From a virus: a stretch of DNA of 64,000 nt. The notes under the pieces were generated by a model. It was not told the DNA's origin and did not search any database. It worked only from the letters and a program-made list of their open reading frames with translations. The stretch lies in IMG/VR virus record IMGVR_UViG_3300040801_002079, positions 221,837 through 285,836 of that record; one strand, 5' to 3'. Positions within the stretch are counted from its first letter, which is position 1. Every line of letters begins with the position of its first letter. Below are positions 8,001-62,122 of the stretch, in pieces. Both the position numbers and the translations under genes were made by a program.

Positions 8001-8206
8001 TTTACTTTTCTAACAATCCAGTCAATACTTTCCGATCCGGCTAACATCAGGGCTACCCATAAAATCAAATAAAGCATGGAATATGCCCCGAATGTATCAC
8101 CATACGTATCGGCTAAATATTTAAATAATTCATAGCCACCCCATAGATTAAGAATGACCCATATTAATTTGAGTATTGATATTCTCATAGCAATAAATAA
8201 TAACAT
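7991..8206 (-). CDS. Small membrane protein (up to 71 aa)
   Basis: Two hydrophobic segments (around residues 8-28 and 43-58) with a short acidic loop between them and a basic end (RKVKGK), so probably a two-span inner-membrane protein. The start could be at 8206 or at the internal MRISILKL (8188), and neither has a clear ribosome-binding site. The gene overlaps the start of the plus-strand kinase-like gene at 8205 and its stop lies within the tRNA-Asn acceptor. Function is unknown; holin-like architecture is possible but unproven. Confidence 0.5.
   Translation of the reverse strand: MLLFIAMRISILKLIWVILNLWGGYELFKYLADTYGDTFGAYSMLYLILWVALMLAGSESIDWIVRKVKGK
8192..8199 (+). promoter_or_regulatory. 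Late promoter box AATAAATA, 5 nt before ATG
   Basis: Same geometry as the boxes at 15691 and 17364: box, 5 nt, ATG of a capsid-targeted gene. Confidence 0.6.
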
Positions 8207-8915
8207 GAAACTTAAAGACTTACAAGAAGCCTTCGATACTCAAATTTCTAACATCGATTATGATGGACACTTTCCATTTGGTTATATCCAAACCAAAGAT
8301 GACGATGCTCTTGGTCATGGGGAATTCTCCAGAGTGACGCAAGATAAAGATGATCCCCATATGGTTGATAAGCAACAGCTTAACAGGACCGACAGGTCTG
8401 GAAGCATCTTTGTTGATATGTTTGACCAGTATGCTGAAATCATTGCCGAAGAACGTCTATGGGAAATGATTCACTTTCCACGAGTTTATGCTATTAAAAA
8501 ATATACAGACGAAGCTGGTGAGGTTCGCAATAAATGGAAAATGGAAAAACTCATAGAACTGGATTCTCTTGACCAAGAAGAAATCAAACGTATGACTCAT
8601 CGTTATTTTATCCCCGAAGTTGCCGAAGAAGTTGCGGAACTAGATGCGGAAAAAGAAGATCAATATCATTATTCAAACTTTGCTGATGCAATCTCAGTCG
8701 CAATACATGAAGGTGAGTGGGATCACTTCAGAGATAAGACCCTAGAGAAAGCCGCTGAAAAATTAGAAGACATCTATACCGATCTTCGGCAAAATTATGG
8801 GTATGATGCAGTTGCTTTGGATTTACATTCTGGGAACATAATGGTTAGAAGAACCCAGAATGGCCTTCAAGTTGTTTTCTCTGACCCGTTCGCGGGAAGA
8901 AAACAATATATGTAA
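8205..8915 (+). CDS. Kinase-fold-like protein with capsid-targeting N-terminus
   Basis: The gene encodes 236 residues from MKLKDLQEAF. The first eight residues end in L-Q-E, matching the T4 gp21 cleavage rule (L/I-x-E), so it is probably packaged in the head and trimmed. A Gly-rich GHGEFSRV segment (~39) is followed much later by D206-L-H-S-G-N211-I-M, a classic kinase catalytic loop (D-x-H-x-x-N), and by SDPF at ~226-229 where DFG would stand. The middle is helical and acidic. I infer an injected kinase-like effector; the ATP-binding lysine is not obvious. It is one of three plus-strand genes in a minus-strand block, each behind its own late promoter. Confidence 0.65.
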   Translation: MKLKDLQEAFDTQISNIDYDGHFPFGYIQTKDDDALGHGEFSRVTQDKDDPHMVDKQQLNRTDRSGSIFVDMFDQYAEIIAEERLWEMIHFPRVYAIKKYTDEAGEVRNKWKMEKLIELDSLDQEEIKRMTHRYFIPEVAEEVAELDAEKEDQYHYSNFADAISVAIHEGEWDHFRDKTLEKAAEKLEDIYTDLRQNYGYDAVALDLHSGNIMVRRTQNGLQVVFSDPFAGRKQYM

Positions 8916-8916
8916 T

Positions 8917-9005
8917 TGGTACCGTAGGCGGGATTCGAACCCGCAGCCCGAAAAGACGGGCACAGGCTCTCAACCTGCTGTGTATACCGATTCCACCACT
9001 ACGGC
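8917..9005 (-). tRNA. tRNA-Leu(GAG)
   Basis: Class II tRNA with loop TTGAGAG (anticodon GAG), long variable arm (GCCCG/CGGGC), A73 and encoded CCA. Confidence 0.92.
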
Positions 9006-9166
9006 AAAGAATCATACAATGTGATCACGGGCGTGTTATTTAACCGCTAACGGACCCACTCAACCTATTCCATTGTATACGTGCCACCATTGAGCTTGTG
9101 GCGTTAAAGTTCTTCCGCATTCTGACCATCCCGGAATCGCGTGATACTTCATTGTCAGCATCCGTA
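9006..9166. other. Spacer, no confident gene
   Basis: A minus-strand 30-codon frame (9060-9152, starting MKYHAIPGWSECG) is open but has only a weak ribosome-binding site. Otherwise I see no tRNA, strong hairpin or promoter. Confidence 0.3.
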
Positions 9167-9322
9167 TCACTCTGATAACGACTTTCCCTTTAACAACTTA
9201 GATAACAATCTGCGCAAAAGAGTTTGTTTCTCAACTTCACGCTTTCTTAGTGCATAATAGTGTAACATAGCTTTCTTGCCTTGTCTACTACGTAATATCA
9301 TGTCTAACTGCTTCTTGTTCAT
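9167..9322 (-). CDS. Small basic protein (51 aa)
   Basis: The frame is open from 9370, but the start MNKKQLDMILRSRQGKK at 9322 has a GGGAG ribosome-binding site ~9 nt upstream. The upstream part of the longer frame lies inside the armless tRNA. The product is very basic and helical, rich in Arg, Lys and Leu, so nucleic-acid binding is possible. No family is recognised. Confidence 0.5.
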   Translation of the reverse strand: MNKKQLDMILRSRQGKKAMLHYYALRKREVEKQTLLRRLLSKLLKGKSLSE

Positions 9323-9340
9323 GCCTGTGTCTCCCGTGTT

Positions 9341-9402
9341 TGGTGGAACTGACCGGACTCGAACCGGCAACTTCGCGCACTCTACCGTTGAGCTACAGTC
9401 CC
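9341..9402 (-). pseudogene. tRNA gene lacking the anticodon arm (62 nt)
   Basis: Acceptor GGGACTG/CAGTTCC, D arm GCTC/GAGT, T arm GCCGG/CCGGT with TTCGAGT loop, and encoded ACCA are all intact. Between D arm and T arm only ten bases remain (GCGCGAAGTT) where about 23 are needed, so there is no anticodon stem-loop. Either a clean internal deletion or a tRNA-like RNA with a non-decoding role. Confidence 0.7.
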
Positions 9403-9704
9403 TATCGTGGTGGTCGTGTTTTTACCACTTCCGAAAATTCATCTTTGTCCAAGTACCAAAATGGACTAGATGGTTTAAATCCATGCTGTTCCAATATTGC
9501 AAGATCAGCTTTAGTTAAGTAATACATCTTTAGATAATCTTCGGGATGTAAGACTGTATGTGATATCAGCCTGAGTGCGTTGGTCATATTACTATCATCC
9601 CATCCACTAGACCCCAACATTCTCACAACCATGTAGATTATCAGGCTGATGCTGCCTGCTAAAAAAAGTATAACACCTAAACATATCAACATTGCAATTG
9701 TCAT
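9402..9704 (-). CDS. Small membrane-anchored protein (100 aa)
   Basis: Residues ~3-28 form one strong transmembrane helix (MTIAMLICLGVILFLAGS start). The remaining ~70 residues are soluble. A good GGGAG site precedes the ATG. The stop abuts the armless tRNA. The topology predicts an N-terminal anchor with a soluble domain on one side of the membrane. No family is recognised. Confidence 0.7.
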   Translation of the reverse strand: MTIAMLICLGVILFLAGSISLIIYMVVRMLGSSGWDDSNMTNALRLISHTVLHPEDYLKMYYLTKADLAILEQHGFKPSSPFWYLDKDEFSEVVKTRPPR

Positions 9705-9734
9705 AATTATTCTCCCTTGTTATACTTATTTATT

Positions 9735-9827
9735 TGGTAGTAGGGGAGGGATTCGAACCCATCACCAACCTCTAATCTGGAGTTCGAGATTATAAATCTC
9801 GTCGTGCTACCGTTACACCACCCTACC
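9735..9827 (-). tRNA. tRNA with anticodon UAU (Ile) and long variable arm
   Basis: 93 nt. Acceptor GGTAGGG/CCCTACT, encoded ACCA, anticodon stem CGAGA/TCTCG with loop TTTATAA (anticodon TAT). The variable arm is ~20 nt (ATTAGAGG can pair with CCTC-rich bases) and the T stem is weak. TAT normally reads AUA (Ile), but the body is class II-like. Confidence 0.7.
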
Positions 9828-9927
9828 ATTAATACTTCAGGGGAACTCGCTCTCTCCAAGCACCTTACGGTGGCGAGTCTCATCTGCGGCCTATCCCGTC
9901 CATTTTTTACACTGAAGCGATTTTTTT
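9828..9927 (-). ncRNA. Structured spacer RNA candidate
   Basis: On the minus strand CTTCAG closes with CTGAAG. Inside, ACTCGC pairs GCGAGT, and a CACC-GTAA-GGTG hairpin caps the structure. It lies between tRNA-Ala and the UAU tRNA and would be released by tRNA processing. No known family is recognised. Confidence 0.35.
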
Positions 9928-10004
9928 TGGTGGACCTAGACGGACTCGAACCGACATCAGCTACATTGCAAATGTAGAGCTTTCCCAAATTAAGCTACAG
10001 GCCC
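9928..10004 (-). tRNA. tRNA-Ala(UGC)
   Basis: Loop TTTGCAA (anticodon TGC), anticodon stem CTACA/TGTAG, encoded ACCA. The acceptor has two G-U pairs and the T stem one mismatch. Confidence 0.88.
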
Positions 10005-10264
10005 TTTAATACTTTATCTAACCACCAATGCGGATACTTTTCATCTTCATACAATTCATACTTAAAAAGTAATCCTTGTTCAATGTCTTCGCGCCACATC
10101 TTAACGGTGACATCCATATACTTCTTACCAATGTAAAAACCGTTATTATCTTTACATCTTCCCAGCCCATGTGATTCCTGTAAGTTTAACTCTCTCATGG
10201 AATCATCACTGTAATCACAAATGTGTTCCCAGTCTTTAGAAAAAAGTCTGTAGACCTCGCACAT
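9995..10264 (-). CDS. Hypothetical protein (89 aa)
   Basis: A small, acidic, Trp/Tyr-rich soluble protein starting MCEVYRLFSKDW. Its last codons overlap the 5' end of tRNA-Ala by ten bases. A ten-codon ORF with a strong AGGAGG site lies 17 nt upstream (10282-10314) and may couple its translation. Function unknown. Confidence 0.65.
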   Translation of the reverse strand: MCEVYRLFSKDWEHICDYSDDSMRELNLQESHGLGRCKDNNGFYIGKKYMDVTVKMWREDIEQGLLFKYELYEDEKYPHWWLDKVLKGL

Positions 10265-10281
10265 TCTTATAAATTTACCGG

Positions 10282-10314: not shown

Positions 10315-10351
10315 GGCATCCTCCTATGCATTGGTGACATATATTGATAAT

Positions 10352-10429: not shown

Positions 10430-10431
10430 CA

Positions 10432-10641: not shown

Positions 10642-10648
10642 AAACACA

Positions 10649-10677: not shown

Positions 10678-10678
10678 G

Positions 10679-10755: not shown

Positions 10756-10763
10756 ATAATGAT

Positions 10764-14698: not shown

Positions 14699-15265
14699 TT
14701 AAACCATGCATCCTATCAGTAAATTAAGAGTCTTATCGTAATCATCTTGTTTCTTCTGATATTCTTCGTTTCTACCCAATATATCTATCGCTCGTTTCAT
14801 TGAGTAATAATTTAGCCCATTATGAAAGTCAGTTTGAACAAAATGCTCGTGATGTTCCTCATTGAACAAATGCTGTTCCATGTCATCAATAATGACATAA
14901 GCCTCTATATCATCACGCTTTTCCAGCCATTCCGATATGCGGTGAGTGCGTCCATATAATTCGCGATCACCAGAAAGACTGAAGCCTGAGCTTTCAGTTC
15001 TTCCAACAAACACCGTTCGAGGGAAAGTAAACCCCCGTTCTACAAACATATCATAAAGCTCTTTAATGGAAAAAAGCTCTCTCCATGTACTGGAAACCAC
15101 AATCTTGGCATCAGTTTGTTTAAGTATCTCCTCAAGAAGGGCTAACTTTCCCGGAGAAATGACCTCTGCTCCATGGTTATAAGGATGATCTTCAACATAA
15201 TCCTTTTCCATAAAATCGGTGGTTGAGTTTAAAACTCCATCAATATCTAAAAAAATAACTTTCAT
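14699..15265 (-). CDS. HAD-superfamily phosphatase-like protein
   Basis: The gene encodes 188 residues from MKVIFLDIDGVLN. Motif I is DIDGVLN (residues ~7-13, D-x-D-G), motif II is VVSSTWR (~57-63), and motif IV-like IIDDMEQH is near ~128. This arrangement matches the HAD domain of 'Swiss Army Knife' RNA-repair proteins, which act as phosphatases on nucleic-acid ends. Given its place in a tRNA array, a role in tRNA-end repair after host anticodon-nuclease attack is an attractive inference. No ligase or kinase partner is visible next to it. A CATAAATA box at 15273-15280 makes the MKV start likelier than the upstream MTM at 15271. Confidence 0.75.
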   Translation of the reverse strand: MKVIFLDIDGVLNSTTDFMEKDYVEDHPYNHGAEVISPGKLALLEEILKQTDAKIVVSSTWRELFSIKELYDMFVERGFTFPRTVFVGRTESSGFSLSGDRELYGRTHRISEWLEKRDDIEAYVIIDDMEQHLFNEEHHEHFVQTDFHNGLNYYSMKRAIDILGRNEEYQKKQDDYDKTLNLLIGCMV

Positions 15266-15383
15266 AGTCATCTATTTATGATATTACAAATAAGTATGGA
15301 AGTCAAGTTGACAATGGCAGTTGCCGCATTGCCTTCCGTCCCCGACACCTGTTCACACACTGCCATGCATTATGCGGTGCCTC

Positions 15384-15690: not shown

Positions 15691-15698
15691 TATAAATA
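15691..15698 (+). promoter_or_regulatory. Late promoter TATAAATA, 5 nt before ATG
   Basis: Exact late consensus. The predicted start is the A of the ATG of the ADP-ribosyltransferase-like gene. Confidence 0.7.
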
Positions 15699-15703
15699 TA
15701 AAC

Positions 15704-16084
15704 ATGAAACTCAATAATATATTACAAGAAAACGGATATACCTATCCAACTTCAAACAAAACCATAACACTTTACCGAGGATTATCACGAGAATTTGATC
15801 CAACATATGATAATTCAACACTGGACTCTCCAACAGGATATAGTTGCTGGTCAGATACTCCTGAACTGGCAAGAGCTTATGCTGGAGATGATGGTTATGT
15901 TTATAAAATAGAGTTACCTTTAAAGGAATTAGGGGACACTTTTATTACTGATGATGGCGATAGGCCCCTATTTTATAAATCGGATCATGGCGCTAATATA
16001 AATGGAGCGCGTGGACAAGAATACATGATATACCATGATCATGAAAATTTCTCGCCCGATTCGATTAAATTAACCGATTACTGA
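15704..16084 (+). CDS. ADP-ribosyltransferase-like protein with capsid-targeting N-terminus
   Basis: The gene encodes 126 residues. The first nine (MKLNNILQE) match the capsid-targeting pattern with cleavage after L-Q-E. Next comes the ART signature of the R-S-E class: LYRG with R25, a GYSCWSDTPELARAYA segment (residues 45-60) corresponding to the S-x-S motif and following helix, and ARGQEYMIY with E106 as the catalytic-Glu candidate. It is a minimal ART domain. T4 packages the ART Alt in the head and injects it to modify host RNA polymerase; this protein could play the same role. The target is unknown. The longer frame starting at 15470 runs through tRNA-Phe and is not the real start. Confidence 0.78.
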   Translation: MKLNNILQENGYTYPTSNKTITLYRGLSREFDPTYDNSTLDSPTGYSCWSDTPELARAYAGDDGYVYKIELPLKELGDTFITDDGDRPLFYKSDHGANINGARGQEYMIYHDHENFSPDSIKLTDY

Positions 16085-17363: not shown

Positions 17364-17371
17364 GATAAATA
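17364..17371 (+). promoter_or_regulatory. Late promoter box GATAAATA, 5 nt before ATG
   Basis: Box, 5 nt, ATG of the second kinase-like gene, matching the geometry at 8192 and 15691. Confidence 0.6.
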
Positions 17372-17376
17372 TACTT

Positions 17377-18021
17377 ATGAAACTCAAAGACCTATTAACC
17401 GAAACACCGCTGCCACCAGATTGGGATAAAGATAAATTCAAATCATCTACCCCGTTTGCGCAACGTGTTCGCTATGCTAAAGAACGTGCAAAACAAATCG
17501 GTGTCGGTTCAGCCCGTATTGCATTTGAGGTTGAATACGAAGGCCGTCCTACTATTTTAAAAATAGCCAAGAACAAAAAAGGGATTGCACAAAATGAATA
17601 TGAATCACAAATGTTCAATGATTACTACCTGCGTAGTCTTGAAATAACCATTCCAATAATTGACCATGATGAAGAAAATGATCCTCCGACATGGATTCAT
17701 ATGGAAAAGGCTGAAAAAATGAAGCCTACTCAATTTAAAAAATTCTTTAACGGTATGGACCCCCACGAAGTCCTAGATGCCGTAACATACTTAACAGGTA
17801 AAACCCGACAATTTAATCGTCCTAGTCAAGAAACCATTGACAAATACAATGAATTATTCGAAACAAACGAGTATATTAATAGTCTCGTAGACTTAACTGG
17901 CAATTATGATATCGAAGCCGGGGATTTTGCCCGTTTAGCAAACTGGGGAATCTATAAAGGAAACCCCGTTATTATCGACATCGGTGGTAGTAGTGAAGTT
18001 ATTAAACTTTACTATATGTAA
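17377..18021 (+). CDS. Kinase-fold-like protein with capsid-targeting N-terminus
   Basis: The gene encodes 214 residues. The first nine (MKLKDLLTE) match the capsid-targeting/gp21-cleavage pattern. A Gly-rich loop GVGSARIAFEV (42-52), an ATP-lysine candidate K62 in TILKIA and a helix-C Glu in AQNEYE (E74 or E76) follow in kinase order. Near the end, NWGIYKGNPVIIDIGG places D201-I-G-G where DFG stands. The catalytic HxD loop is not clear, so it could be an active small kinase or a pseudokinase. The longer frame starting at 17254 lies upstream of the promoter box and is not used. Confidence 0.65.
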   Translation: MKLKDLLTETPLPPDWDKDKFKSSTPFAQRVRYAKERAKQIGVGSARIAFEVEYEGRPTILKIAKNKKGIAQNEYESQMFNDYYLRSLEITIPIIDHDEENDPPTWIHMEKAEKMKPTQFKKFFNGMDPHEVLDAVTYLTGKTRQFNRPSQETIDKYNELFETNEYINSLVDLTGNYDIEAGDFARLANWGIYKGNPVIIDIGGSSEVIKLYYM

Positions 18022-19292: not shown

Positions 19293-19599
19293 ACATGCTG
19301 CTCCTTAATTCTTCGAATATATCAAAATCTCTCATTTCAACATTGGCTACTACTAAAACCATACTGTGTATTCGATGAGGAGGTATAAACGTTTGAAGTC
19401 CTAAATCATCCCTATCCACATTTGTTAATGTTATACCGTGTTCATTTACTGCCTTTCTAAATTCACAGCTTAACACTGCTTTATTTATACTCGGAAATGG
19501 AAGCTTAAACTCTCCATATATTTTCTCAAGGTCAGACTGTGATATCTTTATAGACATACCACCTGTAAGATTAACCATTAAATATCTTTTTGTAGTCAT
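19279..19599 (-). CDS. Hypothetical protein (106 aa)
   Basis: The start MTTKRYLMVNLTGGMS is chosen because its ATG overlaps the upstream TGA (ATGA). A mixed alpha/beta soluble protein with no recognised motif. It lies between the deoxyribosyltransferase-like and zinc-ribbon genes in one operon. Confidence 0.68.
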   Translation of the reverse strand: MTTKRYLMVNLTGGMSIKISQSDLEKIYGEFKLPFPSINKAVLSCEFRKAVNEHGITLTNVDRDDLGLQTFIPPHRIHSMVLVVANVEMRDFDIFEELRSSMYADL

Positions 19600-20096
19600 A
19601 ACATTGTCCCTGTTGGGTTCCATGAGTGTATCATTCCCAGCAATGTCATTTTAGCTCTCTCAAAGTTATCAAAGCATGGGATATTATGCCTCTCACATAC
19701 AATATCAACATTGCCTTTACGCCAAAACTCATTAGGGCAACATACAACCATCTTTTGCCGTTTATAAGCAAATAACCCTAGTTCTAAAAGTGAAATGGGA
19801 GACTTGGTTCCCGGAGCGAAATACATGAAAATAAAAGTCGCCATTTCCTGTGCATCAAGTTCCCACTCAACCTGCTCCCTAAATTTAGGATTATCTTTAC
19901 TTTGTTCCCATGATGAGTCCCAATCGCTTCTGCGGGGATTAAGAAAAGTAACGGGATCATTCTGATAAAACTCTATAATATCCGCTTGCCAATCTACTGC
20001 TGTACCCATTTCAATACTACCAGCCAAAAAGACTGTAGGGGTTTTATATCTATTCGCCACATTGGGAAGTGGATTAGGTGCTTCAATAACCTGCAT
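19596..20096 (-). CDS. Nucleoside 2-deoxyribosyltransferase-like protein
   Basis: The gene encodes 166 residues from MQVIEAP, with AAGGAG 7 nt upstream. PTVFLAGSIEMG (~20-31) is the family's first strand and G-S-I loop. FLNPRRSDWDSSWEQ (~50-65) holds the R-R-x-D-W pattern, and EMATFIFMYFAPGTKSPISLLELGL (~85-110) contains the catalytic Glu in S-x-x-E-L-G. The family exchanges bases on deoxynucleosides or hydrolyses nucleotides, and phage members may salvage or alter nucleotides. Driven by a sigma70-type promoter at 20117-20145. Confidence 0.82.
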   Translation of the reverse strand: MQVIEAPNPLPNVANRYKTPTVFLAGSIEMGTAVDWQADIIEFYQNDPVTFLNPRRSDWDSSWEQSKDNPKFREQVEWELDAQEMATFIFMYFAPGTKSPISLLELGLFAYKRQKMVVCCPNEFWRKGNVDIVCERHNIPCFDNFERAKMTLLGMIHSWNPTGTML

Positions 20097-20198: not shown

Positions 20199-20954
20199 AT
20201 GGGAATTTTATCAGCAATCATTATGGAAAATGAAGGTTTATCCTTAAACGATTTAACACTAATACAGCGAATGGCGCTAAAGAAAGTCTATACAGGAAGA
20301 CTTGATACACTTGAGGTATCAGAAAAAGAAGAAAGAGTGTTAGACTCGCTTGTTGATCTTGGGCTATTGGATATGGGATATGATATTACTCCCGAAGGTG
20401 AACGTGCTGCAAGACTTATTGATCAATACTCTAAGAGAGAAAGAGAAGACCTAAAAGCTGCGAAACAGCTTGCGGCTGAAATGAAACCCGATGTTGAAGA
20501 CATGCCTGATGATGATGATTACATGTTCACTGAGAATGAAAAAGCGGTTATGAAAGCTGCTGGTCTCAATGAGGATGATATGAGAGAAGTGTTTAATACT
20601 CAACGCCTCATGGTTAAACTTGAAGAAAATTATCAAATACTACCAGACACTGCATACACCGCTATAAAAAACACACCGCTAGGTCAGCTTAAAGAAATTG
20701 AACAACTGTTTGCTGACTACCATAAAAAGAACGGCAATGTTAAGTGGTTAAAGGATATGTACGACGAAATTAAGGCTGAGGTGGAACGTAGAGAGAATGG
20801 TGAGCCGGAAGAAATGGAAGTTGAGGATGAATACTACGATGAGCCAGAAGATCAGTTCCGTGATGACGTTGAAGCAGACGCTGATGCGTTAGCGAGTGCT
20901 GGATGGGGCGAAGACGAGGCATACGGCTATTACGGAGACGATGAGGGATGGTAA
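20199..20954 (+). CDS. Hypothetical acidic protein with winged-helix-like N-terminus
   Basis: The gene encodes 251 residues. Residues ~15-75 read like a small winged helix (LTLIQRMALKKVY..., VLDSLVDLGLLDMGYDITPEG), the L-V-D-L-G-L-L pattern of DNA-binding wHTH repeats. The middle is helical, and the last ~50 residues are extremely acidic with Tyr/Gly (EDEYYDEP...YYGDDEGW). It stands alone on the plus strand within minus-strand head genes. A structural core protein or a regulator are both possible. Confidence 0.7.
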   Translation: MGILSAIIMENEGLSLNDLTLIQRMALKKVYTGRLDTLEVSEKEERVLDSLVDLGLLDMGYDITPEGERAARLIDQYSKREREDLKAAKQLAAEMKPDVEDMPDDDDYMFTENEKAVMKAAGLNEDDMREVFNTQRLMVKLEENYQILPDTAYTAIKNTPLGQLKEIEQLFADYHKKNGNVKWLKDMYDEIKAEVERRENGEPEEMEVEDEYYDEPEDQFRDDVEADADALASAGWGEDEAYGYYGDDEGW

Positions 20955-20981: not shown

Positions 20982-22289
20982 TTAAACTTCCTCGAATTTA
21001 ACCCTAAGAAGAACTGTGGTTTTCCTACCACGGTACTCATCATGCTTTTTAATGGTTCCCATGATATCATACGTGGTATCATCTTCCATGCGTTTGCGGC
21101 TACCGTTCCACCATGTGAATGAATTGCCAGCATCATCTTCCATTTTAACAAGCTGCTGGTCTTTCTCATTGTATCCAAAGTAAACGGTCTTTATCATGGT
21201 TTTCACTACCTTAACACGAGTTTTCGGCAGTTTGTCTCCGGGATTACCAATCCACTCATTTGATTTCTTTTCTTTCTTCTGCTTATCCTGCTCACCTTTA
21301 GCTCTTTCGTATGCAGGGAAAATTGCAACAAGATAACCCACATCTCTCCATGTGATATGATCACTGTTATAGATTACATCAATATTATGATAAAAATTAT
21401 TGTTTTGCTTTTCATCATCACTAACTTCATTTTCAAACCAGTTAGTGACCTTTTCAAGATATGCTTCTTGTTTGGGTCCAAAATCTTTTGCAACCTTCAT
21501 CCATTGATCATACTTTTCAACATCATAGCGATTTAATGGACGCTGATTGAAAATCAATTGTTTAACAATGGAACTAGTGGTGTCTTCACCATAACCCGCA
21601 GCATTATATGAAAGGTATCCATATTCATCGATAATAGATGCTGCTACTTTGAGAACGCGGTCACGAGACGCTGCATACTCTGAACGTCCACGAAGCTTAC
21701 CTTCGTAGTTCTCAGCATTGCTCATGATGTTATCAACGCGATCTTTAAGAGAGAACCACCAAAGCATTTGTTTGGGGTCTTTACCACCCAAGAAATCAGC
21801 TAGGCAATTTCTACCGATTTGTCGAAGATCACCCGTCTGCTCATCACGAATGATATAAGTATCAATTCGCGCACGTTTCTTTTTACAATGATCACAATAT
21901 TCAGGCTTAGCGTCATAGAAGTTTTTAACATTAGACTCATCAACTCCGGGCATGGTACGAATAACATTACCAGTACCCTTGTGTTGAATTGTTGCTAAAA
22001 ACTGATACCCCGGAACATGAGGAGCTTCACCATCAACCTCAACAGTTACATACTTCTCTTCAATCTCATCACCATCACGTTTGATAGTTTTAAAGAATGG
22101 TTCAGAAACATCCATGTGAATCTCAGGGCTACCAATTTTAGCGGCTTTGCGATTCAGCTTTTCAATTTCATTCTTTAGGTGGGGAAGAACTGCGTAAGAA
22201 ATATCTTGAGTCGAACTAAACCCAGCATCATTGGGTCCGTCTTCTTCTTGTTCATTCAATTGTTGCGGGGTGATCTGCGACAATTTCAT
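20982..22289 (-). CDS. Zinc-finger/OB-like protein with possible capsid-targeting N-terminus
   Basis: The gene encodes 435 residues. The first 13 (MKLSQITPQQLNE) end in L-N-E and may be a capsid-targeting peptide. Around 132-170 is a conserved-looking unit: CDHCKKKRARIDTYIIRD, then GDLRQIGRNCLADFLG, a C-x-x-C...G-x-x-C-L-x-D-F-L-G pattern I know from uncharacterised phage proteins. The C-terminal ~70 residues alternate strands like an OB fold. Nucleic-acid binding is inferred. A sigma70-type promoter (22321-22349) lies inside the end of the upstream gene. Confidence 0.65.
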   Translation of the reverse strand: MKLSQITPQQLNEQEEDGPNDAGFSSTQDISYAVLPHLKNEIEKLNRKAAKIGSPEIHMDVSEPFFKTIKRDGDEIEEKYVTVEVDGEAPHVPGYQFLATIQHKGTGNVIRTMPGVDESNVKNFYDAKPEYCDHCKKKRARIDTYIIRDEQTGDLRQIGRNCLADFLGGKDPKQMLWWFSLKDRVDNIMSNAENYEGKLRGRSEYAASRDRVLKVAASIIDEYGYLSYNAAGYGEDTTSSIVKQLIFNQRPLNRYDVEKYDQWMKVAKDFGPKQEAYLEKVTNWFENEVSDDEKQNNNFYHNIDVIYNSDHITWRDVGYLVAIFPAYERAKGEQDKQKKEKKSNEWIGNPGDKLPKTRVKVVKTMIKTVYFGYNEKDQQLVKMEDDAGNSFTWWNGSRKRMEDDTTYDIMGTIKKHDEYRGRKTTVLLRVKFEEV

Positions 22290-22759: not shown

Positions 22760-23383
22760 TTAAACCTTTTTAATCACATTCTCAACGAACTTGCGAATTT
22801 CAGCATTAAAATATTTCTGAGCCGCTGGATCATGCTTCAAGCTTTCAGCAAGACTGATAATTCCAGCATCCTCAATTGCTTCAGTAATAGTATTAGGCAT
22901 TGCTCCGGGAGCGGATGGAGTAACAACCAAGTCAACTGTAACAAGATTAAATCCTGAAACCATTCCACCCTCACTAACAACGCCTGCTCCACGACTGGAT
23001 ACACCATAGCGTACACCAGACTTGGAAAGTTCCTGTGCAATCATACCCATCGGGGTATCTAATAGCTGTGCTTTACCAACAACATTATTTCCGTCCATGT
23101 AGATATCTTTAATGGCATGGGAAATACGGTCCATGTTAATAGTAATCGTATCGGGATGATCTAATTCACCAAATACTCCACCAAAGTCATTGATCTGCTG
23201 GCGCATACTATTAACTGCTGCTGTCATTTCATCCAGCTTATAAATGCGTCCATTTCTATTCTCAATCTCGGCTTGCATAAACGTTCCGACCAAATAAGTC
23301 TTTCCGTCACTCTTAGCCTCTGTAATGATGTTTCCCTGAGATGCCGTGGTGGTCTCAATTAATAACTGCTGCTTCATGTTCAT
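22760..23383 (-). CDS. Prohead core protease, T4 gp21-like
   Basis: The gene encodes 207 residues, as in T4 gp21 (212). YLVGTFMQAEIENRNGRIY (~30-48), GVFGELDHPDTI with H76 and a GVSSRGAG segment with S129/S130 match the serine-protease core of the family (T4 His/Ser pair). The N-terminus MNMKQQLLIE ends in L-I-E and a second site I-T-E lies at ~20-22, both consistent with self-cleavage. It cleaves scaffold, capsid and internal proteins after L/I-x-E during head maturation. Upstream, an ATG/stop overlap joins it to the 371-aa gene. Confidence 0.93.
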   Translation of the reverse strand: MNMKQQLLIETTTASQGNIITEAKSDGKTYLVGTFMQAEIENRNGRIYKLDEMTAAVNSMRQQINDFGGVFGELDHPDTITINMDRISHAIKDIYMDGNNVVGKAQLLDTPMGMIAQELSKSGVRYGVSSRGAGVVSEGGMVSGFNLVTVDLVVTPSAPGAMPNTITEAIEDAGIISLAESLKHDPAAQKYFNAEIRKFVENVIKKV

Positions 23384-24498
23384 TATCTCCTAAGTTCGGG
23401 GTCTCTGTCCATTTCTTCCCATTCTTCAAATGAGATGTACCAGTCCGAATCTGGATCATAGTACTTGCCTTCCTTCGGGTCGTAATATACAACCTTTCCG
23501 TTTCGCGCTCGGAATGGACCCTCAAGCCCCTCGCGCTCCTGATAACGATCCCGATCTATTGGTGGGAGGATTCGATATCCTTCCATCATAGGCTCAGGAA
23601 CTTCAATTCCATAATATGCCAACAATTGTTTCCACTGTCCAACAGTTAAACCAATAGAATGTTTGGTTACGTTACCATAATCAACATCGCTAAAATTCAT
23701 AGGAACGGTTCTGAAAACTTTTGTTACAATCTGTTCCCTAAGCTTGTTAGGAATTTCACCTTCATTGGATGACATCTCAACAAACCCCGCTTTTCCATTT
23801 AAACTTCTAAACCGGGGAGAAGGGATTTTTAACTTTCTCGCCAACTGGCGTAATGCCTTAACAACGCCTTTTTGTTGTTGGGTTGCTTCGACAATGTACT
23901 CATCGACTGATTCCTTGATTCTAAACACATCGAATATGTGTTTGATAAGGTCTTCGACTTTTTCAAAATCCGCTTCTTCACCGGTTTCATCTACTCTAAA
24001 AACTATACCTCTATCGAAATCATCTAAATCATTCTCAATAGTGCCTACCTTTTTGCCATTAACAAAAACGTCATCACCTACAAACTTAACAGCACCAAGC
24101 TTTAACTCATTAAGCTGGTTAGCTCTGCGTGACACCTTATCAGCTATAAGCCCCTGCATTAACTCTTTTGCAGTATCAAGCTCTTCATGTAAAACACAAA
24201 ATATAACTTCCTCTAGAATATCCTCATCGGTTTGATCAAAATCTTCATTAACACCAAATCTGTCAATAACGTGAGCTTGTACATTTCGTGGAAGTTCATC
24301 AAACGCAATTTCAACATCCTTGCGTGAAACAACATCTGGATCAAACTCACCCCACTGTGAAAACCCATGTTGCGCATGTGCTGGATCATCACTTAGCCCT
24401 AGACCGCCAAGCTCAGGATCATCAGCCAAGAAAACCGTGTATCTATCAACGGTTTCACCGCCATTATCAAATACTCTAAACATTTCGTTATAATTCAT
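23383..24498 (-). CDS. Hypothetical head-region protein (371 aa)
   Basis: An acidic, helical protein lying between the core-protein candidates and the protease. Several I/L-x-E sites occur (for example I-V-E in DEYIVEATQ near ~205), so the protease could process it. The C-terminus is rich in Asp/Tyr/Pro (YYDPKEGKYYDPDSDWY). T4 has gp67/gp68/gp21/gp22 in this position, and an extended prohead-core role is a guess from location. No motif is recognised. Confidence 0.7.
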   Translation of the reverse strand: MNYNEMFRVFDNGGETVDRYTVFLADDPELGGLGLSDDPAHAQHGFSQWGEFDPDVVSRKDVEIAFDELPRNVQAHVIDRFGVNEDFDQTDEDILEEVIFCVLHEELDTAKELMQGLIADKVSRRANQLNELKLGAVKFVGDDVFVNGKKVGTIENDLDDFDRGIVFRVDETGEEADFEKVEDLIKHIFDVFRIKESVDEYIVEATQQQKGVVKALRQLARKLKIPSPRFRSLNGKAGFVEMSSNEGEIPNKLREQIVTKVFRTVPMNFSDVDYGNVTKHSIGLTVGQWKQLLAYYGIEVPEPMMEGYRILPPIDRDRYQEREGLEGPFRARNGKVVYYDPKEGKYYDPDSDWYISFEEWEEMDRDPELRR

Positions 24499-25155: not shown

Positions 25156-25332
25156 TTAATTCGCCTGATGTGCCTTGTATAAGTACTTAACTAGTTTCTT
25201 ACCTGCACAATATTCCATTTCCTCTTCCGATAGCTCTTCGGATTCACAATCAACATCCTTGAACCTTTCATCCACATCCTTATCCATTCGTTTTTTCTTT
25301 TCGGTTAAGAATTCGATAAAAGTTCTTTTCAT
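25156..25332 (-). CDS. Small core protein candidate (58 aa)
   Basis: A 58-codon gene, too short for most ORF cut-offs. It starts MKRTFIEFLTE then KKK, another L-T-E-ending peptide. The rest is a charged helix rich in Glu, Lys and Asp with two Cys. Start and stop interlock with both neighbours (one shared base upstream, one base gap downstream), which supports it being real. Size, charge and position resemble T4 gp67. Confidence 0.6.
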   Translation of the reverse strand: MKRTFIEFLTEKKKRMDKDVDERFKDVDCESEELSEEEMEYCAGKKLVKYLYKAHQAN

Positions 25333-25799
25333 TATCTTCTTTCCAATTTATCAGCTATGTTACTTAATAGATCATACGTTCTTCGTAGCTGCTGGACAGT
25401 TTCTGGGTCCATCTTTCTATAACCATGTCTTACTGCTTGCCAAACTTCCCATACATTTTGAGCGGCAACATTGAGTCTGCGCACATAACTCATATCAGGG
25501 GAATCTAATTCCTGTTCACTTATATGAAAAGCTAATGAATTCTCATCCAGTTTTTCACTTAAATTTTCCAAATGATGAATGACCTTATCGCAACGGTCAT
25601 CATCTTTGCAAAGCATTTCGGAACACTTTGCTAGATCAACCTCATCAACATCACATTCTTTCTTGAGATATTCATTAAATTCATCTTGTACCTTTTTGCT
25701 ACATTTCTTATACAAAAGCTCAAGATATGACTTCATCTCATCGGATGACATTCTCTTTTCGTGATCTTCATTAAGACTTTTTAAAAATTTTAAATTCAT
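25332..25799 (-). CDS. Candidate internal/core protein (155 aa)
   Basis: Starts MNLKFLKSLNE then D, an L-N-E-ending peptide slightly longer than the common form. The body is helical and Cys-rich (CSKKV, CDVDEV, CSEMLC). It is the first gene after the portal in transcription order, where T4 has gp67/gp68. GGAG and a leader follow the late box at 25832. Function inferred from position and N-terminus. Confidence 0.65.
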   Translation of the reverse strand: MNLKFLKSLNEDHEKRMSSDEMKSYLELLYKKCSKKVQDEFNEYLKKECDVDEVDLAKCSEMLCKDDDRCDKVIHHLENLSEKLDENSLAFHISEQELDSPDMSYVRRLNVAAQNVWEVWQAVRHGYRKMDPETVQQLRRTYDLLSNIADKLERR

Positions 25800-25892: not shown

Positions 25893-27578
25893 TTAAGGAG
25901 TTTCTTCCCCGATATCTTCTTCCATATCAGTACCGGCTTCTTCTCCCTCTCCTTCTTCGCCTTCTAGGTCTTCAACTTCCGTTTCTTCATCAAAGTCACC
26001 TAGATCGCCTTCGCCGCCTCCAGCGCCACCGAATCCGCCAATGCCGCCTTCAAATCCCTGATCTTCAGCAATATCCGGATTATAAATCTTAACCAAATCT
26101 TCCTTACCACCATCAACAGGCAGACCCATTTCTTCACGCTTGAGACGCTCATTAAGTGCCTGCTCTTCTGGTGTAAGCTGTAAGTATTTGGTCTGTGCGA
26201 ATCTAACAGAAAGTGAATCAATTCCTTCAGCATTGCCATAGTTGTTGAGTCTGTCAGAATCAATAGCAATCTCTCTATGATCAGAGAAGTTAGATGGGCT
26301 TGGCAATGCTATTCTGAATGAAGATGGGTCAACTACTATCTTCATATCCGCCAAGAATCGTTTAAATTCACCATCAAGGGTTTCTTCTAGATGGGCTTGT
26401 AGCCTCTCGACATATTGGGAGAACTTGATTTCCTGCATATATGCAATGCCTACCCTGCCATCATTGCTTGGACTGCCGCCACCGTCTACCATATTGTTCA
26501 TATAGGAATCTGGTATTCTCATTCCTCTCCATAGCTTGGAGAAGAAATATTGTAAATCATCAAGTTGTCCAAGGCCCTGACCACCGGGAAGGGTTTCTAC
26601 ACGACCACCATTGCCATCTGCTGGAACAGAGAAGAAAAAGTCTTCTTGCATTGACTGTGGATCGTAAATTGATTCAATCTGATCTTTACCACCACGCTGA
26701 GTTGGAATTTTCTTCTGGCGCATTTCATTTTTAACTTTACGCAAATGCGCTTCAATCTGGGTTCCCCTCATCTTACCGGTGGGGATATAGAATACACGGC
26801 GTTCAGGAGCACGGGAAATTCTATAGATTAGAAGTGAATCTTCAAGTAGTTCCTTCTGTTTAAAGGTTCGATATGCTGCCCTTAAAATAGACTCCCCAAA
26901 TGGAGCCTCATTATTCATTTCATCAGACAGCGTGAATCTAACAACATCTTTATTATCAACAAACCCATAATCTCTGTTGTTTTTACTATTGTCACTATGG
27001 GGAGTTATATTAACAGGAAGTAAAAGTTGGTTACCATAGTTTGCAGTGGCATCATTGAAATTAAGATTTATTTCCCATTTCTTAATATCATATATATCTT
27101 CAACACTTACTTCTGCTGCATTAACATGCTTGGGATGAACGTATATTAACTTTTTAAAAGCTCCGGAATTATTTCTAAGAAAGAAGCAATCGCCGTACTT
27201 AATAGTAGACCTTGCCACGCCAAACAATCGGCTGTTCCACTGCTGAACTCTACACCATGTTTTTAATGCGGATTTCAGTGTAACGATTTGCGAAGTTGAC
27301 ATCTTATAATGTTCATTATCAACATGTACATCTAATGGTAAATCTCTTTTACTCTTATTGCCTACCATTTCCTCAGCAATAAGGTCTAATGCACGAGCAA
27401 TATCTATATCAGCATCCATAGTGTCATATTCACTATATCGCTTAAGTCTGGTGTACGAACCTCTAACCAAACGGGTGTACCAGTTAATGCTGCCAAATCC
27501 AAGCATATCAGCATTGGATGTCATGTTGGCAGAGGCATATCCCGGAGTTATAATTTTATAGAATTTTTTAACGCTCAT
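25893..27578 (-). CDS. Portal protein, T4 gp20-like
   Basis: The gene encodes 561 residues, close to T4 gp20 (524). Typical T4-type stretches include YDTMDADIDIARALDLIAEEM, SILRAAYRTFKQKELLEDSLLIYRI followed by RAPERRVFYIP, and RGMRIPDSYM, all of which occur at the expected places. The last ~60 residues are extremely acidic and Gly-rich (GGAGGGEGDLGDFDEET...), an unusual tail. It forms the dodecameric DNA gate of the head and the connector to the tail. A late box lies at 27601-27608. Confidence 0.93.
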   Translation of the reverse strand: MSVKKFYKIITPGYASANMTSNADMLGFGSINWYTRLVRGSYTRLKRYSEYDTMDADIDIARALDLIAEEMVGNKSKRDLPLDVHVDNEHYKMSTSQIVTLKSALKTWCRVQQWNSRLFGVARSTIKYGDCFFLRNNSGAFKKLIYVHPKHVNAAEVSVEDIYDIKKWEINLNFNDATANYGNQLLLPVNITPHSDNSKNNRDYGFVDNKDVVRFTLSDEMNNEAPFGESILRAAYRTFKQKELLEDSLLIYRISRAPERRVFYIPTGKMRGTQIEAHLRKVKNEMRQKKIPTQRGGKDQIESIYDPQSMQEDFFFSVPADGNGGRVETLPGGQGLGQLDDLQYFFSKLWRGMRIPDSYMNNMVDGGGSPSNDGRVGIAYMQEIKFSQYVERLQAHLEETLDGEFKRFLADMKIVVDPSSFRIALPSPSNFSDHREIAIDSDRLNNYGNAEGIDSLSVRFAQTKYLQLTPEEQALNERLKREEMGLPVDGGKEDLVKIYNPDIAEDQGFEGGIGGFGGAGGGEGDLGDFDEETEVEDLEGEEGEGEEAGTDMEEDIGEETP

Positions 27579-37544: not shown

Positions 37545-37922
37545 TCAGTAGTTAACTACTATAACATTCAACCCATTATCTTTGGCATACTTAATCATGT
37601 GGGCAGTGCCACGAGATTTACCATCCCAGAATGCAATTAATGAATCGGCATAATCACCCATCTGCTCGTTGCGTATGGGTCCAGCGGCCTTTCCATGTTT
37701 ATCCCATTCTGCTGGAAACAGCATTACACCAACATGATTTTCTTTAGCCCAGCGTTCACCTAAACTATCGGCACCACGAGCACCACCTGATACAATCTCT
37801 ATTTCATCAGCATGATTGCCATTCCATATAGCATTTCGAAAATTTTCTAATGTTTTTGATAGTTTCTCGTAGTCATTAAAGTCTCTGCCACCAGCAACTA
37901 TTACTTTGTGAAAATTAAACAT
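37545..37922 (-). CDS. SLOG-family (DUF2493, YspA-like) protein
   Basis: The gene encodes 125 residues. The Rossmann-like signatures are clear: VIVAGGRDFNDY (~8-19), IVSGGARGADSLGERWA (~43-59), FPAEWDKHGKAAGPIRN (~67-83), then LIAFWDGKSRGTAHMI (~93-108). SLOG domains bind nucleotides or their derivatives and some sense signals in defence systems. The phage role is unknown; nucleotide-signal binding or hydrolysis is an inference. Confidence 0.85.
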   Translation of the reverse strand: MFNFHKVIVAGGRDFNDYEKLSKTLENFRNAIWNGNHADEIEIVSGGARGADSLGERWAKENHVGVMLFPAEWDKHGKAAGPIRNEQMGDYADSLIAFWDGKSRGTAHMIKYAKDNGLNVIVVNY

Positions 37923-58774: not shown

Positions 58775-58775
58775 T

Positions 58776-58810: not shown

Positions 58811-59038
58811 ATGAGTGATCCAAAAGACTACTTAAGAAAAATGATAGACCACACTATTGATGGGGATATGGAAAGTGCTGAACAGGCATTCAAAGATTAC
58901 TTAGTTCCCAAAACTAAAGAAGTAATGGGGATGGGGGCACCGGAGGCTCCAGTAGAAGAACCTGCACCTGAAGAGCCAGTAGCGGAAGAGCCAGTAGCGG
59001 AAGAACCTCCACCTGAAGAACCGCAACCAACTGAATAA
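58811..59038 (+). CDS. Small acidic protein with Glu/Pro repeats (75 aa)
   Basis: Residues 1-~38 (DPKDYLRKMIDHTIDGDMES, then AEQAFKDYLV) form a helical domain that recurs in small proteins of T4-like phages and is sometimes compared with prohead core components. Residues ~43-75 are A/V-E-E-P repeats. Its own promoter and strong terminator make it a separate, probably highly expressed unit between gp15 and sheath. A virion core or chaperone role is possible; not established. Confidence 0.65.
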   Translation: MSDPKDYLRKMIDHTIDGDMESAEQAFKDYLVPKTKEVMGMGAPEAPVEEPAPEEPVAEEPVAEEPPPEEPQPTE

Positions 59039-59184: not shown

Positions 59185-61332
59185 ATGCCTAGTTTAATAA
59201 GCCCTAATGTATCAGTTACGATCATTGATGAGAGCTTTTATATTCCCGGAAGAGCTACTACGGTTCCTCTTATCTTCATCGCAACTGCTGACAATAAAAT
59301 GCAATCAGATGGTATTACACCAGCCATTGGTACATATGAATATGGTGTAGTAAGAGAAGTGACTTCTATTCGCCAGAGTGCTGAGCTTTACGGCGTACCT
59401 ATATTCAAAGAAAGTGCAAGTGGTGAACCCCATCACGGCGATGCAAGAAATGAATATGGTCTTGACGCTCTAAACAAATTCTTGGAAATCGGTAACCGAG
59501 CATATGTTGTTCGTGCAAATGTAAATTTGGATGATGATTATGACAGCGTTAAAGCTCTATGGAACGGCAAAGTCACCGATTCAGCCGATTACCTAAACCA
59601 ATTGGTTGGCGATTACATTGAAGAATACAATGTTGAAAATGGATTAATCCCTGCTGATTCAAACTATAAAGAAACAGTAACTGCTACAGAGTTAAAGACT
59701 CTTGTTACCACAGCGTTTGAAGATACTTTAAATTCATATTCTTTCAGTAGCCGTGAATTTGAAGAAGGATTCATTCAGGATCACACAATTGATCACCCCG
59801 GATATCAGGAAGTACTTTTTGATACAGACCGAGGTTATTTGCAGAACACAGACGTTACGGGTGTAGAAAATGATAGCACTCTTTACGGAGCAGATGTTGA
59901 AGTTGTTTCGGGAGCAGGTACAGTTGTTTACAACCTATATTTCCAAGGCTCAACGATTCAAACATTTGGCGCACTTTTAACCCAAATGAATTCAGTATTT
60001 GGAACTGAGGCTGTTGCTGAGCTAATTGCTGGCAACATTAGAGTAACCAGCACTCTAGACGGAGTTACATCATCAGTAGAAATTCTAGCTGATGGACCAA
60101 GTGGTTATCTGCCCCTATTTTCAAATCTAAGCCTATTTAAGCAGATCGATGATCCAGTTGCAGGCAAGGGCGTTAGTCCACTTATTGTCTACAATGATGC
60201 ATATGACACCGCTGTTGGAACATATGACGGCATGGATGCACTAATAGATTCTTGGGTTTCCGGCTCACTCGTAGCAGACGAGTTCACTCCAGCCGAAGCT
60301 GAAGGTTTAGCTATTGCAGCAGCCTCTGATTATGACAATACTAAAGAGTTCAAAGATTACACCACTCTGGGCGCTAATGATGCAGCAAGAAGAGCAGAAA
60401 TTGTTGAAAGGCTACAGGAAGTCATTAATGACCCATATACTGGAGTCCGAGGTGAAAACTTTGAATACAATATTGCAATGGCTCCCGGATACTTTGAAAC
60501 TACGGATGAGCTTGTAAGATTGTCTCAAGATTTATACGAAGAAGTCTTTGTAATTGCCGATACACCGTTTGATAAGCCACCAATTGGTCCGAACAGTATC
60601 GCAGTGTGGGCAGCAACCCCAGCAAAGACAAGTTCATATCATGTTGCATACTACTATGCACACGGTATATCTTCAAACTTGGATGGAGAAGACATTATGA
60701 CATCAGCAGCATCAACCGCACTACGTGTTTATGCGTACAACGACCTAGTTGGTGAAATGTGGTTCGCTCCTGCTGGTACTACTCGTGGTACATGTCCTCA
60801 CCTAACAAGTGTTGGTTATGTCAGTGGAGCACTAGGTGGGCCAACCACTTGGGTGGAGGATCATCTTGATGATGGTTCCCGTGATTCACTATACGAAGAG
60901 CCTAAGAACATCAATCCAATTGCTTATAAGGCGGGAAGAGGAATCTTGGTTCTTGGACAGAAAACTACATCACCCAATACATCAGCTTTGGATCGTGTTA
61001 ACGTATCCCGCTTGGTTAAGTTTATCAAGAGAGAGTTAAGAAAAACACTGTTCCAGTACCTATTTGAACCAAATGATAGGTTTACCAGAGCAAATGTTAA
61101 GGCTACGACAGATAGCTTCCTAGTAAGCCTGATTGATCGTAGAGGATTGTATGATTTCGCCACTGTGTGTGATGAAACAAATAACACTCCTGACCGTATT
61201 GACAGAAATGAGCTATGGATTGACGTAGCTATCAAGCCTGTCAAGGCAGTTGAGTTCATTTATGTTCCAATCCGCGTAGTTGCTACCGGTGCAGACATTG
61301 GTGGAAGACAGGAATCCGGATTTGACGTATAA
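59185..61332 (+). CDS. Tail sheath protein, gp18-like
   Basis: The gene encodes 715 residues, as T4 gp18 (659). The N-terminus (LISPNVSVTIIDESFYIPG) is the usual sheath start. The C-terminal domain shows the family pattern: NPIAYKAGRGILVLGQKT, then ALDRVNVSRLVKFIKRELRKT, FQYLFEPNDRFTRANVKATT and IDVAIKPVKAVEFIYVPIRV. Contraction of this sheath drives the tube into the host. Its own late box and terminator flank it. Confidence 0.93.
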   Translation: MPSLISPNVSVTIIDESFYIPGRATTVPLIFIATADNKMQSDGITPAIGTYEYGVVREVTSIRQSAELYGVPIFKESASGEPHHGDARNEYGLDALNKFLEIGNRAYVVRANVNLDDDYDSVKALWNGKVTDSADYLNQLVGDYIEEYNVENGLIPADSNYKETVTATELKTLVTTAFEDTLNSYSFSSREFEEGFIQDHTIDHPGYQEVLFDTDRGYLQNTDVTGVENDSTLYGADVEVVSGAGTVVYNLYFQGSTIQTFGALLTQMNSVFGTEAVAELIAGNIRVTSTLDGVTSSVEILADGPSGYLPLFSNLSLFKQIDDPVAGKGVSPLIVYNDAYDTAVGTYDGMDALIDSWVSGSLVADEFTPAEAEGLAIAAASDYDNTKEFKDYTTLGANDAARRAEIVERLQEVINDPYTGVRGENFEYNIAMAPGYFETTDELVRLSQDLYEEVFVIADTPFDKPPIGPNSIAVWAATPAKTSSYHVAYYYAHGISSNLDGEDIMTSAASTALRVYAYNDLVGEMWFAPAGTTRGTCPHLTSVGYVSGALGGPTTWVEDHLDDGSRDSLYEEPKNINPIAYKAGRGILVLGQKTTSPNTSALDRVNVSRLVKFIKRELRKTLFQYLFEPNDRFTRANVKATTDSFLVSLIDRRGLYDFATVCDETNNTPDRIDRNELWIDVAIKPVKAVEFIYVPIRVVATGADIGGRQESGFDV

Positions 61333-61352
61333 TCAAATCCACATGTAAAAAG

Positions 61353-61380
61353 AAAGCCCCGATTTTTCGGGGCTTTTTTA
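61353..61380 (+). terminator. Strong intrinsic terminator after sheath gene
   Basis: AAAGCCCCGA / TCGGGGCTTT stem with a short T loop and a T-run. The symmetric A- and T-runs may let it act for the convergent gene at 61403 as well. Confidence 0.9.
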
Positions 61381-61402
61381 TAACCTAAATATTATTTTTT
61401 AA

Positions 61403-62122
61403 TTAGAGTTTAATAACGTATTCGTAATAATTCTCTAGCCTGTCATCAAATTTCTTTTTATATTCCTTTTCAAACCGAGTTAAATCAACATCTATAGCTT
61501 CGGCTGCAATCTTTTTAAACTTCTTAAAGGTGCTTCCAAAATACTCATCCTTTAACTTATCTAAGCTGCGAACAAGAATCTGCTTCCTACCTTCATCTGC
61601 GGTATTTTCAATTTTCTCTTTGATATCAGCAGACACATCCTTATATTCTTGAATTCTGCGCTTCATTGCTTCAATTACAATATTATACAGTTTTTCGAAG
61701 TTTTTATCATTATTGATTTCTTTGGCAGATTCGTATTCAGTTTTAAACTCAACCTCATCATTTTTATAGTTATCAATGAAGCTAACTAATTCATTTTTAA
61801 TTTTATTATATACTTTCTTGCTGGCAATGAAATCATCAATATCTAAACGATCCGGGTAAGTTGATGTGGAAACAACAATGGTGTGACCATCTTTTTGTGT
61901 ATTCTTGGCGAGACGGACAAACTCTTTATCAGAATTCAATATGGTCATATACAGTTTTGTATAAGGTGATCGCTTAACCATTATTCCGATATTAAAATCT
62001 AAGCGAGAGTCGCTATAATCGATATGCGATTCATCCGCATTATTAATAACCTGATGAAGAACGATATCTGCCTCATTCTGCGAATTGTTAATTTTTTCTA
62101 TTAGAAATTCCCTAAAATTCAT
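61403..62122 (-). CDS. Candidate internal head protein with capsid-targeting N-terminus (239 aa)
   Basis: Starts MNFREFLIE then K, which resembles the T4 internal-protein peptide (MKTYQEFIAE-type: aromatic, E-F-L/I, x, E) more closely than the other members do. The body is very charged and helical, with long Lys/Glu stretches and VVSTSTYPDRLDIDDFI in the middle. It is the only minus-strand gene between sheath and tube, placed as an insertion. Predicted packaged and trimmed; function unknown. Confidence 0.65.
   Translation of the reverse strand: MNFREFLIEKINNSQNEADIVLHQVINNADESHIDYSDSRLDFNIGIMVKRSPYTKLYMTILNSDKEFVRLAKNTQKDGHTIVVSTSTYPDRLDIDDFIASKKVYNKIKNELVSFIDNYKNDEVEFKTEYESAKEINNDKNFEKLYNIVIEAMKRRIQEYKDVSADIKEKIENTADEGRKQILVRSLDKLKDEYFGSTFKKFKKIAAEAIDVDLTRFEKEYKKKFDDRLENYYEYVIKL

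Follow-up and report, generated by a model that had tools for sequence, protein, structure and literature searches.

A set of otherwise unrelated proteins, encoded by what its portal sequence marks as a T4-related jumbo phage, begins with a short shared N-terminal peptide that we read, at a probability of about 0.8, as a T4-type capsid-targeting propeptide in a greatly expanded system. The leader is about 8-14 residues long and closes with [LI]-x-E (12 of 12 genes first listed), and about 22 genes of the source genome besides gp22 and gp23 carry it. This tag would bring its protein into the core as the prohead assembles, and a gp21-type protease encoded by the phage would cut the tag off after [LI]-x-E at head maturation. 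Among T4 proteins, Alt bears a capsid-targeting sequence. The T4 internal proteins Ip1-3, which are anti-restriction proteins, bear one as well and have only this leader in common, and related phages have at least 10 such proteins (PMC12373910, PMC3012670).

The DNA analyzed here (the window, 64,000 nucleotides) comprises bases 221837-285836 of a 316,801-base (316.8 kb) IMG/VR virus record. Genes were called with a hexamer (coding-potential) model across the whole record, yielding 454 genes; in this run, starts preceded by a late-promoter-like box were scored slightly higher. Megablast of the central 24 kb (window 20900-45000) against phage records returned no match. The nearest portal proteins are those of Xanthomonas phage XacN1 (48.8% identity) and Stenotrophomonas phages CM1 and RAS14 (48.5%), followed by PA5oct, SCTP-2, RaK2 and GAP32, an order that places the source phage, by sequence, with XacN1 and RaK2 among the T4-related jumbo myoviruses.

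An earlier note on this DNA had listed 12 genes whose products share the peptide and are unrelated beyond it. Translations from the 12 starts match the quoted peptides exactly in every case, the same starts were picked by the coding-potential caller (run with the small late-promoter bonus), and all 12 peptides have L three residues before the boundary and E last. BLASTP comparison of the 12 proteins, each trimmed of its 14 N-terminal residues, gave no match between any two at E<=0.05, so the bodies are indeed unrelated. The list held for all its members and proved incomplete: a 13th tagged gene lies at 20199-20954, and about nine more lie outside the window (Table 1). A motif fixed from the 12-gene list before other genomes were examined fits 26 of the 454 genes genome-wide, against 3.4-3.5 expected; shuffled N-termini gave 3.5 ± 1.8 fits, with a maximum of 10 in 500 shuffles, and internal Met positions fit at 0.5%. 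The stricter form MK[LIM]..[LIF]xE occurs in 15 genes of the whole record (0.5 expected), and a scoring matrix finds 23 genes at a score of at least 9 (0.8 expected), a count that is circular for the source genome because the matrix was trained on that genome's own tagged genes. Weak tags, such as MKIRELKE and MKLKHLFE, also exist. The codon for leucine-3 of the tag varies among genes (CTC, CTT, TTA and TTG), and recent copying of one DNA cassette therefore does not account for all tags.

Table 1. Tagged genes, context genes and late-promoter-like boxes. Positions are those of the window unless marked as genome positions; a slash marks the putative cut site.
Feature	Position	Strand	N-terminus or sequence	Remarks
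Late-promoter-like box	8193..8204	+	ATAAATA	ends 5 nt before start codon of 8205
Tagged protein, 236 aa	8205..8915	+	MKLKDLQE/AFDT	kinase-like C-terminal motif (weak)
Late-promoter-like box	15691..15703	+	TATAAATA	ends 5 nt before start codon of 15704
Tagged protein, 126 aa	15704..16084	+	MKLNNILQE/NGYT	
Late-promoter-like box	17365..17376	+	ATAAATA	ends 5 nt before start codon of 17377
Tagged protein, 214 aa	17377..18021	+	MKLKDLLTE/TPLPPDWD	orthologues in four other records
Tagged protein, 251 aa	20199..20954	+	MGILSAIIME/NEGLSLNDL	13th, absent from the earlier list
Tagged protein, 435 aa, phrog_2319 family	20982..22289	-	MKLSQITPQQLNE/QEED	family match begins at residue 27
Tagged protein, 141 aa	22332..22757	-	MKLSDILTE/AKDD	head operon; L017 counterpart MKLSNILNE
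gp21-type prohead protease	22760..23383	-	MNMKQQLLIE/TTTASQGNIITE/AKSD	Pfam S77 E 3e-22; phrog_207 E 7e-58
Head-operon protein without N-terminal tag	23383..24498	-		matches XacN1 ORF298
Tagged protein, 122 aa	24502..24870	-	MKLNDILLE/VDMS	head operon; not at same place in relative L017
Tagged protein, 95 aa	24867..25154	-	MKLNDILVE/GLGF	head operon; not at same place in L017
Tagged protein, 58 aa	25156..25332	-	MKRTFIEFLTE/KKKR	head operon
Tagged protein, 155 aa	25332..25799	-	MNLKFLKSLNE/DHEK	adjoins portal gene
gp20-type portal protein	25893..27578	-		context gene; tblastn to XacN1 portal, 48.8% identity
Tagged protein, 154 aa	43858..44322	+	MKIEDILNE/ARSR	
Tagged protein, 239 aa	61403..62122	-	MNFREFLIE/KINN	XacN1 and RAS14 homologues at aligned N-terminus
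Tagged genes outside window	genome 41106 (start uncertain), 43979, 101299, 108825, 109247, 130553, 147497, 158660, 211087			

The gp21-like protease that the earlier note had placed in this genome is present (Pfam S77), and its gene (start at 23383(-)) belongs to the 12 that were listed. It retains GELDHP and GVSSRG (GELNHP and GVSSRG in T4 gp21), the His and Ser occupy their positions in each of the eight genomes compared, T4 included, and the protein bears an N-terminal site, LLIE, as T4 gp21 likewise bears one. The corresponding N-terminal site of the major capsid protein gp23, identified by alignment, reads [LI]xE in eight of eight phages (LAE, LAE, LLE, IAE, LFE, LVE, ISE and LTE). These gp21 and gp23 sites support the same predicted cut rule in the XacN1/RaK2-type clade, independently of the tags.

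Six other tagged genes, starting at 22289(-), 22757(-), 24870(-), 25154(-), 25332(-) and 25799(-), share an operon with the protease, downstream of the portal gene. SCTP-2 and S13 homologues of 20982..22289 begin at the start of the family match and lack the tag, the protein here having about 25 extra residues; the homologue in the relative L017 retains the tag as MKLSELHVQLNE. The L017 homologue of 25156..25332 reads MRFKEFLAE/KAEE, retaining the site in a peptide two residues shorter, and homologues of 25332..25799, the product of which is probably a core protein, read MNLKLLKEIDALNE/DHEK in L017 and ...ALISE/DHQR in XacN1 (ORF300). The untagged 23383..24498 protein includes a short stretch resembling small head-operon proteins of XacN1 and RAS14. 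Far from the head operon, at 58811-59038(+), a small acidic protein (MSDPKDYLRKMIDHTIDGDMESAEQAFKDY) also looks by eye like such proteins, namely XacN1 ORF298 and the product of the RAS14 gene at 155607.

Searches of relatives for the peptide found an excess in several phages with a gp21-type protease: motif fits against expected numbers were 19/555 vs 4.2 in G001, a 363-kb relative found via the 17377 protein, 12/183 vs 1.6 in the Alishewanella phage Slickus01, 13/340 vs 2.8 in PA5oct and 12/433 vs 2.8 in RAS14. The excess is modest in RaK2 (10/507 vs 4.3) and in XacN1 (8/524 vs 3.1, one terminal-repeat gene being counted twice). It is also modest in T4 (5/254 vs 2.3), where the motif, being tuned to the source phage, misses the T4 internal proteins, so that this value does not measure the number of tags in T4. 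The peptide is not equally common everywhere: the two controls, phiKZ (3/349 vs 2.5) and 201phi2-1 (1/439 vs 2.5), both of the phiKZ kind, have no excess. In Slickus01, at least seven neighboring genes (L077:9064-15666(-)) carry tags of the MKIDxLYESLLEE type, one of them matching ART-PolyVal (E 4e-11) and several others having no family match.

As judged by inspection of alignments, the families 17377, 61403, 20199, 20982, 25156, 25332 and 8205 (named by first coordinate in Table 1) retain the junction while the peptide differs in sequence or length. The 17377 junction, L-x-E/xPLP, is kept in three orthologues despite divergent peptides (MKIKELLKE/APLPDDWD in G001, MKIDNLYSTLLE/APLPDDWD in Slickus01 and MKQVRLSQFLSE/APLPDDWD in XacN1); in a fourth, on contig L145, the junction is internal (VIDE/MPLPADWD). 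The 61403 family begins MNFREFLIE here, MRFTSYLIE in XacN1 and MSFKTFMIE in RAS14, with the called starts of the latter two shifted upstream, as required by an alignment that begins at residue 1. In the 20982, 25156 and 25332 families the L017 junction is kept, with peptide lengths that differ by one, two and three residues. The L017 homologue of 20199..20954 starts MKLLSSLICE/GEKFSLNDL (49% identity), and XacN1 ORF296 (MKIQNILSE) and a RAS14 protein (MKIKTLLE) belong by eye to the same family. The make-up of the cargo set changes quickly from one relative to another. ParB-like tagged proteins seen in three phages were set aside, as they share a short motif by eye only and homology was undetectable.

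Among the dispersed genes of the window, 8205..8915 and 17377..18021 likely encode cargo. The former product weakly matches the protein-kinase family phrog_15752 (E 5e-4), and the caller picked its start only when promoters earned a bonus; that start is supported by the RAS14 homologue (MKLIDLFE/DQQH), which aligns from residue 1. The 15704..16084 product has a weak local match to the tagged Slickus01 ART-PolyVal protein (pairwise E 1e-5, phmmer 0.0015) and is a possible ADP-ribosyltransferase, a reading that is only tentative because the ART-PolyVal profile has no hit in the source genome, the 15704 protein included. Scans of viral contigs with the 15704 and 8205 proteins found no relatives, sequence searches of solved structures with the 8205, 15704 and 17377 proteins gave nothing usable, the 17377 and 15704 proteins yielded poor AlphaFold models (mean pLDDT 46 and 44), and PADLOC found nothing convincing among ten tagged proteins.

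Tags also stand on recognizable enzymes. A CCA-adding enzyme (genome 211087; Pfam PolyA_pol E 3e-34) carries an N-terminal stretch of about 36 residues ahead of the point where its Slickus01, XacN1 and RaK2 homologues begin, a polynucleotide-kinase-like protein (genome 158660) has about 11 extra N-terminal residues, and a GNAT domain protein (genome 101299) starts MKLKHLFE. In untagged homologues of the CCA-adding enzyme, the polynucleotide kinase and the phrog_2319 protein, the domain lies at or near the N-terminus. The anti-CBASS protein Acb1 is tagged in two relatives, with MKLTEIIEE and a domain from residue 13 (E 3e-37) in G001 (L160:1396-1914(-)), and with MNITELYEALTSE and a domain from residue 15 (E 1e-30) in Slickus01 (L075:18451-18945(-)). 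Similar-looking Acb1 N-termini are found in XacN1 (97001-97573, MGRHLAEILLE), Vibrio phage D485 (MKLSTFLE) and Aeromonas phage AsFcp_2 (MLSFSEFTE); that of RAS14 (MEILMEE) is a less clear tag, T4 Acb1 has none, and the source phage's own Acb1 (genome 163436, E 1e-33) starts MKLRHLKPVPQ, in which a clean L-x-E is absent. The Acb1 homologues at L168:298-753 and L167:286-780, like those of G001, Slickus01 and XacN1, have an N-terminal extension that ends in a gp21-like site directly before the domain. We tentatively suggest, at somewhat less than even odds, that the jumbo phages of this clade preload their heads with a broad and exchangeable enzyme arsenal, with Acb1 in relatives, such that cyclic-nucleotide defence would be blocked before phage gene expression and injected counter-defence proteins could be predicted from a genome by their tag. 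The literature searched contained no paper on packaged Acb1.

From these sequences we infer packaging, cleavage, injection and an effect on the host. The capsid-targeting reading of the earlier note is well supported by the motif excess, the flat phiKZ-type controls, the relatives with gp21-type proteases, the fixed junctions, the gp23 site and the tagged enzymes. Two parts of it were overstated: the reading of the whole set as cargo, seven of the 12 genes lying in the portal-protease operon, and packaging with injection, for which the virion data of PA5oct (below) give no significant enrichment. The tagged set would instead form two groups, the portal/protease block and the dispersed single genes, several of which are preceded by a late-promoter-like box of their own. 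The block probably includes core proteins, and because these seven genes are located in this operon, one being the protease, they may encode core proteins as in T4 and not injected cargo. The seven lie between the portal gene and 20982, with the protease among them, as the core genes of T4 do; XacN1 has related genes at the same place (ORF300 for 25332 and ORF298 for 23383-24498). It is unlikely, though, that the tagged set consists chiefly of prohead core or scaffold proteins that are cut up or expelled at maturation and never reach the host, since the dispersed CCA-adding enzyme, polynucleotide kinase and GNAT protein have no evident scaffold role and relatives put the tag on Acb1 and an ART-PolyVal protein. 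Virion data from the distant relative PA5oct, the record of which marks 93 proteins as detected by mass spectrometry (91 among 340 called genes), bear on both sides. Its gp22-like gene is the sole gene between portal and major head protein undetected in virions, as expected were core proteins degraded, whereas three tagged proteins were detected: the best-formed short-tag genes 82921, 155221 and 157529 (3/3), a group chosen after seeing the data. Over all genes tagged by score, enrichment is not significant (4/10 detected vs 91/340 overall, p = 0.26), and a looser motif gives none (11/55 vs 80/285). The text of the XacN1 virion paper names ORF272 and ORF279 as packed (PMC5852040), and neither carries a tag. 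The dispersed genes are better cargo candidates than those of the portal-protease block, and their products, most simply, would stay in the mature head and be injected with the DNA.

Two other readings concern the peptide itself. Many sorting routes use short, partly hydrophobic N-terminal peptides, and the tag could be another address, e.g. for a replication compartment or membrane; the L-x-E ending conforms to the established cut rule of gp21, and the clade's gp21 and gp23 retain a site of this type. Another address is the least probable of the readings considered. Nearly as improbable, and disfavored against capsid targeting, is that the MKLxD/N start is a translation or transcription feature, such as a start-codon context for leaderless late mRNAs, with L-x-E arising by chance. 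In 26/454 genes TAAATA ends exactly 5 nt upstream of the start codon, against 0-3 genes at each other spacing from 0 to 12 (starts called without regard to promoters), and this TAAATA-N5-ATG arrangement occurs in 8/34 MK[LI] genes vs 26/454 overall (p = 2.6e-4), including some MKL genes without L-x-E (genome 121005 and 129378). The box is absent, on the other hand, from most tagged genes, all those of the head operon included, the synonymous codons of the tag differ among genes, and homologues such as the three of the 61403 family retain the L-x-E junction and not MKL.

The boxes are a feature in their own right. An A precedes TAAATA in 23 of the 26 boxed genes, most of which lack a Shine-Dalgarno sequence; examples in the window start at 15704(+), 17377(+), 62857(+), 12891(-), 11447(-) and 4033(-), and several dispersed tagged genes carry such T4-late-like ATAAATA boxes. 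The T4 late box occupies about -13 to -6, and transcription here would therefore begin at the A of the ATG, predicting leaderless late mRNAs for the boxed genes. The same peak is found in G001 (10), XacN1 (7) and RAS14 (5) and was not seen in T4, RaK2 or Slickus01; no paper on leaderless T4-type late promoters was found in the literature searched.

Read as capsid targeting, the system is of a kind known from T4, and what is new is the size of the set, its range of enzymes and the link to Acb1. As with the T4 internal proteins, unrelated proteins have only a short, here putative, N-terminal packaging leader in common, alongside a gp21-type protease and a diverse, fast-changing tagged set. Unlike in T4, about 22 genes are tagged in one genome, with a leader of the type MKLxxILxE and with many single, dispersed genes, and the tags stand on RNA-end enzymes, a GNAT domain and, in relatives, Acb1. 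Ejection proteins are described for Salmonella phage SPN3US and phiKZ-like phages (PMC5694885, PMC10052503), which are also giant phages with many head proteins, partly cut by the prohead protease and ejected with DNA; these are another kind of phage, and the motif used here is not in excess in phiKZ or 201phi2-1. A further parallel comes from the polyvalent proteins that phages and plasmids encode (PMC5512222, PMC7824862), with their ART and GNAT domains, for which injection as part of large polyvalent proteins has been proposed (PMC7824862), and the tagged Slickus01 protein matches ART-PolyVal; a polyvalent protein is one large multidomain protein, whereas here separate small proteins carry a putatively removable tag. 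If capsid targeting is true, an N-terminal signature would list, from sequence alone, the proteins carried into the host at time zero, and a large pool of unknown genes would be reduced to a short list of candidate first-strike or counter-defence proteins. It also suggests that known enzymes such as Acb1 would be delivered ready-made in some phages.

Other genes of the region are of interest apart from the tags. The gene at 2561-4033(-), which has a leaderless-type late box, encodes a protein of 490 aa in which Pfam identifies the catalytic domain of a T6SS Tle1-like phospholipase (E 4e-72). Twin-arginine-like N-termini (MKRRTLLKG, MKRRSLLKG, MKRRNFLKL and MKRREFVIT), unusual for a phage, occur close together at 112-795(-), 7658-7906(-) and genome 221277-221543(-) and 221540-221923(-). 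The window is also rich in nucleotide- and NAD-linked conflict genes, with NADAR/gp30.3, nucleoside deoxyribosyltransferase-like, SLOG-family and RNA-repair HAD proteins encoded at 6394-6861(-), 19596-20096(-), 37545-37922(-) and 14699-15271(-), respectively.
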